Of a stretch of DNA of 64,000 nucleotides, positions 59,814 through 64,000 are shown piece after piece. This DNA comes from Bacillota bacterium (GTDB lineage Bacteria; Bacillota; UBA4882; UBA8346), in the NCBI GenBank assembly GCA_012735315.1, contig JAAYHS010000066.1, positions 1 through 64,000 on the forward strand, read 5' to 3'. The position numbers and the translations under genes are program-made. Within the stretch, counting starts at the first letter, position 1, and the number at the start of each line of letters is the position of its first letter. The notes under the pieces were generated by a model. It ran no database searches. It worked only from the letters and a program-made list of their open reading frames with translations, and had not been told where the DNA came from.

Positions 59814-60890
59814 ATGAGTTTAAAACGCTTATCAAGCTTATCTAAAATTGGTGAAAAAATGATTATCCGGTTTATTTCAAAGGTATTCCCCTTAGTCTCA
59901 AAAGAACTGAATTTCTGGATTTCCAAAGCGGAACAAATACCCGACTGGGAATTGCGGGTTCAAGCTTTATCAAGCATTCGGGCGAAAAAGTTTCATGCCC
60001 AGGGCGGCGGCGTCTACGCTTTATATACCGGCTCCGCCATACCGGATACCGTCCGGTTCATCGTCGCCCTCCAGACAATCAGCGATTATCTCGATAATCT
60101 TAGCGATCGGGCCGGGGTAACCGATGAATCGGCTTTCTTCCAGCTTCACCTGGCCATGTTGGACGCCGTCGATCCGGCACGTCCCGTATCCGATTACTAT
60201 CGCGAGTATCCTTTTAAAGAAGATCGAGGGTACCTTGAAAAATTAGTAACGATCTGCCGCCGGCAGATTGAAAAACAACCCTCCTACCGGGTGGTCCTGC
60301 CGAAAATCACCGCCTATGCGCGGCGCTATTCCGAATTGCAATCCCTCAAGCATTTAGCCCCGGAAATACGCGAAGCCCGTCTTAGCGAATGGGCGCGGCA
60401 AAAACTCGCTTCCCGGTTCCCCATCCATTGGTGGGAATACGCCGCGGCTACCGGTTCAACTTTGGGCATGTTCCTTCTGTATGCCGCATCGGCCGATCCG
60501 GCGCTAACTCCGGAGACGGTAGAGGCCATCGACCGCGCCTATTTCCCCTGGGTCACCGGTCTGCATATTCTGCTGGATTATTTTATCGACGCTCAAGAGG
60601 ACCGGGAAATGGGAGATTACAATTTTACCTCCAAATATCAAAACCAAGCCGAACTCCTTAACCGGCTGAGGTTTTTGATCGAACAATCAACTCAAGCCTG
60701 CCGGGCCCTTCCCCGTCCCTCCTTTCATTTAACCGTAATCCGGGGGCTTTTGGCGCTGTATCTTTCCGACCCCAAAGCCCTTGACCCCTGCCGTAAAGAA
60801 GTCAGTTTGGAGCTGATCCGCCGGGGCGGGGCTAGATGCCGTTGGTACCACCGCTGTTGCGGATTGCTGAGGATGATAAAAATCATCTAA
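59814..60890 (+). CDS. ytpB: Tetraprenyl-beta-curcumene synthase-like terpene cyclase, YtpB family
   Basis: 358 residues of the DUF2600 family, which includes YtpB. The expected first metal-binding DxxD is present as DYLDN (about residue 90), and helix patterns match the large-terpene-cyclase family throughout. It cyclises a C35 (tetraprenyl-type) diphosphate to tetraprenyl-beta-curcumene, a sesquarterpene of spores and resistant cells in Bacillus. The ATG at 59814 has no Shine-Dalgarno; an ATG at 59859 after GGTGA is an alternative. It converges on the polyprenyl synthase gene, which can supply the substrate. Confidence 0.87.
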   Translation: MSLKRLSSLSKIGEKMIIRFISKVFPLVSKELNFWISKAEQIPDWELRVQALSSIRAKKFHAQGGGVYALYTGSAIPDTVRFIVALQTISDYLDNLSDRAGVTDESAFFQLHLAMLDAVDPARPVSDYYREYPFKEDRGYLEKLVTICRRQIEKQPSYRVVLPKITAYARRYSELQSLKHLAPEIREARLSEWARQKLASRFPIHWWEYAAATGSTLGMFLLYAASADPALTPETVEAIDRAYFPWVTGLHILLDYFIDAQEDREMGDYNFTSKYQNQAELLNRLRFLIEQSTQACRALPRPSFHLTVIRGLLALYLSDPKALDPCRKEVSLELIRRGGARCRWYHRCCGLLRMIKII

Positions 60891-60958
60891 CGGTTTAGCC
60901 ATCCCCTTCAAATACCGACCGCTTCCGGCTTTGTCCCTAATACCCCGCTGCTTCTTGA

Positions 60959-61960
60959 TCAATTGGCCCGCGCCTGCAACATATAAGTCAAGTCGCTTAA
61001 AAACCGGCGTTGCGAGCTGTCGGCGAAACCGCTCAATATCTTTCGCGCCTCTTCCAAATGGGCGGCGCCGATCGCGAAGGCCCGTTCGATCGCTCCGGAT
61101 TCCCGCAGCGTGGACTCGATCCGTTCCAGTTGGGCGCGGTTGAATTCCCTTTCTTTGATAACCGTATTAATCCAATCCCGGTATCCTTCCTCCTTTAAAA
61201 GCAGGGCCAAGGGCAGGGTGATGTTCCCCTTGGTCAAGTCGGCATATTTCGCTTTGCCCATCTTGGCTTCGTCGCCGCAGAGATCCAGAATGTCGTCGGT
61301 TATTTGAAAGGCCAACCCCAGGTTTAATCCGAACCTTCCGATCGTCTCCGCTTCGGATTCCGGCGCGCCGGCGACCAAAGCCCCCGCTTTGCAGGAGGCT
61401 TCCAGTAAAACAGCGGTTTTTTTGGTGATCCGCTCATAATACCGCTCCAAACTCACTCCGGTGTTAAATTGATCCGCGGCTTGCAATATTTCTCCCCGGC
61501 ACATTTCTTGGACCGCCTGAGCCATAATTTCCAAGGTCTTTACTAATCCGGTCTCCGCGAGAACCCCGAAGGCTTTGGCGAAAAAAAAGTCCCCGCCCAG
61601 TACGGCGCGGTGGCAACCCCAATTTTTTTGCGCCGTGGGCCGGTTGCGCCGGAGTTCCGATCCGTCGATCACATCATCGTGGATTAAGGAAGCCATGTGA
61701 ATCAATTCCACGGCGACCGCGGTCCTTTTTAAGGCTTCCGAGGGGGCGCCGAACATTAAACCGCTGTACCAAACCAATAAAGGCCGTACTCTTTTTCCAC
61801 CCGCATTCAAGCTATGGAGGCCGATATCGCGGATCGTTCCCCGGCCGTCGTCGACGACCTTCGTCAGTTCCGCCTCAATCATGACGGCGACCTCTAATGA
61901 AGAAGAGTCCCAGACAATGCTTTGTAATTCGGATGAACGTTCGGAGGTTAAAGTTCCCAT
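60959..61960 (-). CDS. Polyprenyl diphosphate synthase
   Basis: 333 residues from the ATG at 61960; a frame to 62020 would begin with a hydrophobic stretch unlike the family. Aspartate-rich motifs LIHDDVID (FARM) and FQITDDILD (SARM) are intact. Small residues near FARM suggest a medium to long product, such as heptaprenyl diphosphate, which the neighbouring YtpB-like cyclase could use. Convergent with it. Confidence 0.9.
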   Translation of the reverse strand: MGTLTSERSSELQSIVWDSSSLEVAVMIEAELTKVVDDGRGTIRDIGLHSLNAGGKRVRPLLVWYSGLMFGAPSEALKRTAVAVELIHMASLIHDDVIDGSELRRNRPTAQKNWGCHRAVLGGDFFFAKAFGVLAETGLVKTLEIMAQAVQEMCRGEILQAADQFNTGVSLERYYERITKKTAVLLEASCKAGALVAGAPESEAETIGRFGLNLGLAFQITDDILDLCGDEAKMGKAKYADLTKGNITLPLALLLKEEGYRDWINTVIKEREFNRAQLERIESTLRESGAIERAFAIGAAHLEEARKILSGFADSSQRRFLSDLTYMLQARAN

Positions 61961-62273: not shown

Positions 62274-62304
62274 TGAAATATTAATGAAACTAGGGGGTGC
62301 TTTT

Positions 62305-63045
62305 TTGAAAAGGTTATTTGGGATATCCTTGATCCTCGGATTAATTCTGGTATTGGCCTCGGGTTGTTTCCAAGCGAAGCAAGTTCTTAACGTCGGCACC
62401 GACGCCACCTATGAACCCTTTGAATACATTGACGAATCAGGCAATTATGTCGGCTTCGACATGGAATTGATTAAAATGGTCGCCGACGAGCTGGGAATGG
62501 AATTGAAAATCCATAATGTCAACTGGGATGGGATCATTCCCGGACTGATAAACGGTAATTACGACTGTTTAATCTCGGCGATGACAATTACCGAGGAGCG
62601 TCAAAAGCAGATCAGTTTTTCCGACCCGTACTTCTCAATTAAACAGGTAATCGTCGTCAAAACCGATAACGATGCTATTAAAGGCCCGGCCGATCTAGCC
62701 GGCAAAACCGTAACCGCTCAAATCGGCACCACCGGGGATCTTTACGCCAGTAAGATCGCCGGCGTCAAAATGAAACGATTTGATACCAATCCCCAAGCCG
62801 TGCAAGAATTGCTCAATAACAACGCCGACGCTGCTGTAATGGATGATTTGGTGGCTTCTGAAGCAATAAATAAAAACCCCGACTTGAAAATGATTGAAAT
62901 TACCGATGCGGAGGTCGAATATTACGGCATCGGCGTCAAAAAAGAAAATACCGAACTGCTTGAAAAAATAAATAAAGCTTTGGAAACCCTGAGAAATAAT
63001 GGTAAGTTAGCCGAATTGGAACAAAAATATAAATCCGGAGATTAA
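62305..63045 (+). CDS. Amino-acid ABC transporter substrate-binding lipoprotein
   Basis: 246 residues from the TTG at 62305 after AGGGGGTG; the ATG at 62284 lies before that site. Lipoprotein signal peptide with an LASGC lipobox, then a class II binding protein fold (PBPb) with the NVGTDATYEPFEYID start that marks the polar amino-acid family (HisJ/GlnH/FliY type). Captures an amino acid outside the cell. A strong hairpin lies after it, before the permease gene. Confidence 0.92.
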   Translation: MKRLFGISLILGLILVLASGCFQAKQVLNVGTDATYEPFEYIDESGNYVGFDMELIKMVADELGMELKIHNVNWDGIIPGLINGNYDCLISAMTITEERQKQISFSDPYFSIKQVIVVKTDNDAIKGPADLAGKTVTAQIGTTGDLYASKIAGVKMKRFDTNPQAVQELLNNNADAAVMDDLVASEAINKNPDLKMIEITDAEVEYYGIGVKKENTELLEKINKALETLRNNGKLAELEQKYKSGD

Positions 63046-63056
63046 CTGGAATTCAG

Positions 63057-63105
63057 AATACGGTCAAATGGCTAAATTTAGCCGTTTGACCGTATTGCTT
63101 TTTTC
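63057..63105 (+). terminator. Strong hairpin between binding protein and permease genes
   Basis: AATACGGTCAAA (63057-63068) and TTTGACCGTATT (63085-63096) pair fully with an inner GGCTAAA/TTTAGCC stem, then six T. It likely ends most transcripts so that the binding protein is made in excess over the permease. Confidence 0.8.
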
Positions 63106-63127: not shown

Positions 63128-64000
63128 GTGAAACATTATTATTGCCAATTTTTTGTAATTTTATTCCTATTATTAGGAATATTTATCTTTTGGGAATCTA
63201 TTCCAGCTCTGGGAGCTGAATTAACGGTTAATTCCAACCCGCCGGGGGCGCGGATCTGGTTGGACGGCATCGATACCGGGCAAACAACGCCCCATACTTT
63301 CCGGAATATCGAAGAAGGAACGCGCCGGCTCGAACTCAGAAAGCCCCCCAAATACCGGAATGAAAAACGCAAGGTAACCGTTAAATCCGGGGTAAATAAA
63401 GTTGAAATCGCGATTCCCGAGACCTCTCTCTATTATATGTGGCTTAGCCTGCCCGCTCTGTTGTTGGGAACGCTAATGACCCTCTTTTTAACTGTTGTCG
63501 CCGTGTTCAACGGCATTCTCATCGGTACCTTCGCCGGAGTGGCCCGGGTGATTCATAACAAAGTCATTAACATGCTCTCCGGGATCTATGTTGATTTTAT
63601 CCGCGGCACGCCGCTGCTGGTCCAGATTTTTATGATTCACTTCGGTTTACCGCCTGTTTTGGGCTTGCTTTTTAATAACGGACAACCCATTCCCCTCAAC
63701 CCTTTTATATCCGCTTTATCAGCCTTAAGCATCAACAGCGGCGCCTATGTGGCCGAAATTATCCGGGCCGGTATCCAATCGATCGACCGGGGCCAAATGG
63801 AAGCCGCCCGTTCCTTGGGAATGACATACCGCCAGGCGATGCGGTACGTTATTCTCCCCCAGGCTCTAAAGCGGGTGATTCCGCCCTTGGGAAATGAATT
63901 CATCGCCATGCTCAAAGATTCTTCGTTGGTCTCGGTGATCGGGATGGAAGAGTTGGTTCGCAAAGCGCAAATCATTATCACCCGCACTTATCGTCCGACT
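63128..64000 (+). CDS. Amino-acid ABC transporter permease with N-terminal PEGA domain (partial)
   Basis: 291 codons, GTG start, running off the right edge. First a signal/anchor helix (about 7-25), then a PEGA domain (about 29-98) with the PPGARIWLDG motif, then a HisM-type permease (about 105 onward) with the EAA loop EAARSLGMTYRQAM. The reading frame is continuous from the start codon through the permease, so this is a true fusion, not a frameshift. PEGA domains are extracytoplasmic beta modules that bind surfaces or glycans. A fusion to an amino-acid permease is uncommon and may position the transporter or its binding protein. Confidence 0.85.
   Translation, partial: MKHYYCQFFVILFLLLGIFIFWESIPALGAELTVNSNPPGARIWLDGIDTGQTTPHTFRNIEEGTRRLELRKPPKYRNEKRKVTVKSGVNKVEIAIPETSLYYMWLSLPALLLGTLMTLFLTVVAVFNGILIGTFAGVARVIHNKVINMLSGIYVDFIRGTPLLVQIFMIHFGLPPVLGLLFNNGQPIPLNPFISALSALSINSGAYVAEIIRAGIQSIDRGQMEAARSLGMTYRQAMRYVILPQALKRVIPPLGNEFIAMLKDSSLVSVIGMEELVRKAQIIITRTYRPT

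Follow-up and report, generated by a model that had tools for sequence, protein, structure and literature searches.

The window, by which we mean the whole 64,000-nucleotide stretch of Bacillota DNA that was analyzed, closes on an amino acid ABC importer operon, and the features of this operon are collected in Table 1. A gene for a substrate-binding protein (SBP) is followed by an intercistronic hairpin and by a gene for a PEGA-permease fusion, in which a hydrophobic segment at the N terminus precedes the PEGA domain and an entire permease of the ArtQ/GlnP type follows it. The window edge is crossed by this single open frame, which starts at GTG 63128, ends with a stop at positions 64097-64099 of the contig (68,416 bases), 99 bases past the edge, and encodes 323 residues. 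The unbroken PEGA-permease frame that an earlier note had read from the DNA was thereby borne out, and both Pfam domains lie above their curated cut-offs (20.8 bits for PEGA; 26.4 bits for BPD_transp_1, matched at residues 129-320). TIGR01726 (HEQRo_perm_3TM) reached 90.3 bits against a cut-off of 42.2, which assigns the permease domain to the HEQRo type. Upstream of the GTG lies aaaaaaaagggtg, with the purine-rich stretch aaaaaaaaggg.

Table 1. Coordinates of the importer operon features within the window
Feature	Position	Strand	Evidence
Substrate-binding protein gene, SBP_bac_3, polar amino acid type, 253 aa, lipobox-like LASGC	62284..63045	+	Open reading frame; Pfam SBP_bac_3, 159 bits; best solved match 6svf_A, 1.5e-58
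Intercistronic hairpin, 18 pairs, loop of 4, with CTTTTTT tail; candidate partial terminator and/or mRNA 3'-end stabilizer	63057..63104	+	Folding; strong hairpin likewise located in almost every orthologue and most unfused relatives
N-terminal hydrophobic segment, probable signal peptide, GTG start, residues 1-29	63128..63214	+	Sequence; fast-evolving, with variable ends in orthologues; helix 2-20 in the model
PEGA domain, residues 30-95 (Pfam 31-88), predicted seven-strand beta-sandwich	63215..63412	+	Pfam, 42-45 bits; pLDDT ~94-97; dN/dS ~0.2
ArtQ/GlnP-type permease domain from TM1, continuing to 64099 of the contig past the window	63425..64000	+	BPD_transp_1, 98 bits; HEQRo_perm_3TM above cut-off; 4yms_D, TM-score 0.90 by target length

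The question whether an ATPase gene follows was answered in the contig past the window edge, where such a gene overlaps the end of the permease gene by 8 bases. Its best model was GlnQ, with 340.6 bits below the equivalog cut-off of 379. With a family-3 binding protein and a GlnQ/ArtP-type ATPase in the same operon, the locus is a complete SBP-permease-ATPase importer for polar amino acids (PAAT, of the ArtQN/GlnPQ kind) with a single permease gene. Among the possible substrates glutamine, arginine, and cystine, no equivalog model reached its cut-off. Because there is only one permease gene, a permease homodimer is expected, by analogy to ArtQN and GlnPQ. The gene order SBP, hairpin, PEGA-permease, and overlapping ATPase was common to all loci read. 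A separate SBP gene was located upstream in every fused locus read, the one in L038 being cut by the contig end, and the operon is thus distinct from a GlnP-type SBP-permease fusion, as its N-terminal domain is PEGA. The proposal that PEGA replaces part of the substrate-binding interface does not hold as a replacement of the SBP; assistance in its docking is still conceivable.

When whole genomes were searched with the protein, fused homologues turned up in 11 genomes besides that of the window. A profile covering PEGA and TM1 matched 11 of 29 genomes in the class, among them the genome of the window, and, when 398 sampled genomes of the phylum were scanned, one more from an additional family (f6). 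The known fused genes number 13 (the window and 12 other genomes) and come from five families of one phylum. The spread of the fusion beyond the phylum is bounded by the 80 best permease relatives in genome_contigs, one of which (L045) is fused and seems identical to the G006 locus. No plasmid-borne copies of the fusion were found. The one other species of the genus that was covered and most of the class lack the fusion, so it is dispensable at the lineage level. In a tree of 110 permease cores with the PEGA part left out, the 13 fused permeases formed one clade (support 100/100) whose neighbors were unfused permeases from within the class (93/85); we take the PEGA module to have been gained once by the permease. 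The unfused relatives mostly start less than 30 residues ahead of TM1, many of them within 6, and have nothing where PEGA sits. In 16 cyanobacterial relatives, a substrate-binding domain is present at the same junction. SBP anchoring was considered as the reason for PEGA and rejected, since SBPs that are lipoproteins, look soluble, or are N-anchored accompany fused and unfused permeases alike. A TAG lies inside the PEGA part of one orthologue (L044, G012 C438, near 5229), whereas the frames of the permease part and of the ATPase stay open; the TAG may reflect a pseudogene, a split gene, or an assembly error.

The PEGA part of the orthologues matched PF08308 at E <= 0.001 in 10 of 11 cases. Identity to the window protein was mostly 36-50% in PEGA and 72-88% in the permease, with 29% and 70%, respectively, in the most distant orthologue (L043). 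The dN/dS ratios, which are rough owing to the short segments, were 0.19-0.24 for PEGA and 0.03-0.09 for the permease part in four close pairs with usable dS, and PEGA is under purifying selection in two genera. Invariant or nearly invariant PEGA positions are S, P, A, G, TP, T, G, Y, and G, and the PEGA pattern S-P-GA...G...TP is present. These positions recur in another, unrelated PEGA protein that the genome encodes, so they look structural, which argues against a fixed ligand site and for a scaffold. No permease-specific conserved surface residue stands out in PEGA among the orthologues. The unrelated protein, the only other PEGA protein found in the genome (L001, G000 C47, 862-1725), consists of a CsgG/LpoB-like domain followed by PEGA, and its gene adjoins a ferredoxin-type (RnfB-like) gene. 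The family PF08308, to which the match above cut-off and the pattern assign the domain, was reported in work on cell-surface proteins (PMC2447325).

Read by eye, the N-terminal segment has the look of a signal peptide, with a short basic start, a hydrophobic core, and ALGA (PALGA) at the end, which is replaced by LAAC-like lipobox motifs in two relatives. The segment evolves fast (dN/dS 0.19-1.3 in close pairs) and its ends vary among orthologues. It is more likely a signal peptide than the anchor helix described in the earlier note. An Omp85 gene is present in the genome, which makes a diderm envelope probable for this Bacillota lineage and, with it, a periplasmic location of PEGA. The cyanobacterial substrate-binding domains at the same junction indicate that this site takes extracytoplasmic additions and that the N terminus faces outward.

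In an AlphaFold2 model built with 30 aligned sequences (mean pLDDT 91.8), PEGA is predicted as an all-beta sandwich of seven strands between residues 30 and 95 (pLDDT 92), and TM1 begins at residue 100, leaving a four-residue junction of high confidence within a model of the monomer alone and without inter-domain error values. A Foldseek search with PEGA alone returned carboxypeptidases N and D (TM 0.63 by query), the best match being a carboxypeptidase N entry (E 0.006); these matches are weak by E-value (~0.006-0.01) and presumably due to their transthyretin-like domain; by sequence, no solved PEGA relative was convincing. The permease part shares 48% identity with 4yms, an ArtQN-type amino acid ABC transporter, and the same fold over the whole transmembrane domain, but the 4yms permease starts at TM1 (matching profile positions 104-326) and has no PEGA. 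GlnPQ of Lactococcus lactis and the cyanobacterial SBP-permease fusions likewise have an extracytoplasmic domain ahead of a permease of this kind, joined at the equivalent point. These add a substrate-binding domain, whereas here PEGA is added and the SBP stays separate. The binding domain of GlnPQ is joined to the permease by a flexible linker of 19 residues (PMC8025302), in contrast to the short PEGA-TM1 junction predicted here. The transporter and PEGA are each well known; among the papers searched, none reported a PEGA-ABC permease combination.

An extra beta domain on a permease is also known from the maltose importer, where the periplasmic P2 domain of MalF contacts the binding protein. 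P2 sits within a periplasmic loop of MalF, unlike the N-terminal PEGA, and the likeness is drawn as an analogy. We propose that the permease gained a secreted N-terminal module, composed of a probable signal peptide and one PEGA beta-sandwich, attached nearly without a linker at the outer end of TM1. Each transporter would then have two PEGA domains on the periplasmic rim, at the docking site of the binding protein, and these could bracket or guide the docking protein and brace TM1, in the spirit of MalF P2. That the PEGA pair forms such a rigid collar at the mouth of the homodimeric permease is the reading we favor tentatively, giving it somewhat less than an even chance, and its role in SBP contact is one that we infer. 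Counting against it, the lack of a permease-specific conserved surface residue leaves no pointer to a fixed binding site, and the dispensability of the fusion at the lineage level counts against it too. The more specific proposal that in a type I amino acid importer of this kind the collars dock or gate the SBP, as a domain-level SBP coupling independent of both MalF P2 and the fusion of substrate-binding domains, is conceivable but rather unlikely.

Another suggestion is that PEGA tethers the transporter to the envelope, whether through peptidoglycan, through a surface layer, or through a partner protein, and so fixes its location in the cell. Such a tether would suit a domain described in cell-surface proteins (PMC2447325), and the other PEGA protein of this genome has an envelope domain of the CsgG/LpoB-like type; yet the conserved positions look structural, Pfam detected no further domain of a wall-binding kind in the fused proteins, and the SBP anchoring type did not differ consistently between fused and unfused relatives. 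We consider tethering improbable. We give the same low weight to an aid in export, in which PEGA and the signal peptide mainly help the export, insertion, or stability of the permease and no contact of PEGA carries functional weight. Its appeal is that the permease received what is probably a signal peptide along with a compact domain of highly divergent sequence, but the unfused relatives manage without PEGA, which in the fused ones is present over several families and under purifying selection in two genera.

Still less probable is a sensor of the envelope or ligand state that gates transport as an extracytoplasmic regulatory domain. The short PEGA-TM1 junction of the model would favor such coupling, and other ABC importers have regulatory domains, such as the CBS domains of OpuA and the C-terminal domain of MetN; against it, no conserved pocket or ligand motif was seen in PEGA, and the fold resembles noncatalytic transthyretin-like domains. 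An assembly or sequencing artefact, or a permease made from an internal start, is very improbable in spite of the TAG in G012. The same fusion recurs in 12 other genomes as one clade, its PEGA part is under purifying selection, and the frame is intact in 12 of the 13 fused orthologues, which rules out a sequencing error hiding a stop. Nor is an internal start conserved between the two domains, the Met of YYMW being Leu, Ile, or another residue in the orthologues. No function has been settled for PEGA, a domain that is widespread and usually occurs in surface proteins; in this fusion, it sits on a transporter whose fold and mechanism are known. The unfused and SBD-fused close relatives are natural controls, so the function of PEGA can be tested by deletion and transport assays.

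The intergenic stretch downstream of the SBP gene folds at -34.4 kcal/mol (z = -7.5), and the hairpin proper occupies 63057-63096. The earlier note regarded it as a strong terminator that controls stoichiometry. The hairpin is real and strong, but it is not specific to the fusion, an option that was rejected since most unfused relatives also have a strong hairpin there; three orthologues lack the T tract. A strong hairpin after the SBP gene is general to the importer family and unconnected with PEGA. It fits the well-known pattern in which more binding protein than permease is made. The stem GGTCAAA...TTTGACC, longer than a terminator requires, recurs across genera with differing flanks (63057-63096; L034, L035, L036, and L039-L041), and the conserved stem may be a site for protein binding or RNA processing. 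The idea that the hairpin belongs to a repeat family or acts genome-wide was rejected: the window has a single copy of the core, and the genome has none of the longer form TGGTCAAA...TTTGACCA.

Other genes of the contig were also noted. Directly 3' of the importer operon, past the window, lies a gene for a MurG-like glycosyltransferase (L003:4913-5989), and farther on a HEPN gene stands beside a minimal nucleotidyltransferase gene (L003:7415-8129), together looking like a HepT/MntA toxin-antitoxin pair. Upstream of the operon, a DUF2600 gene is located beside a convergent polyprenyl synthetase gene (59814-61897), a pair that we take to recall the sesquarterpene route of Bacillus.
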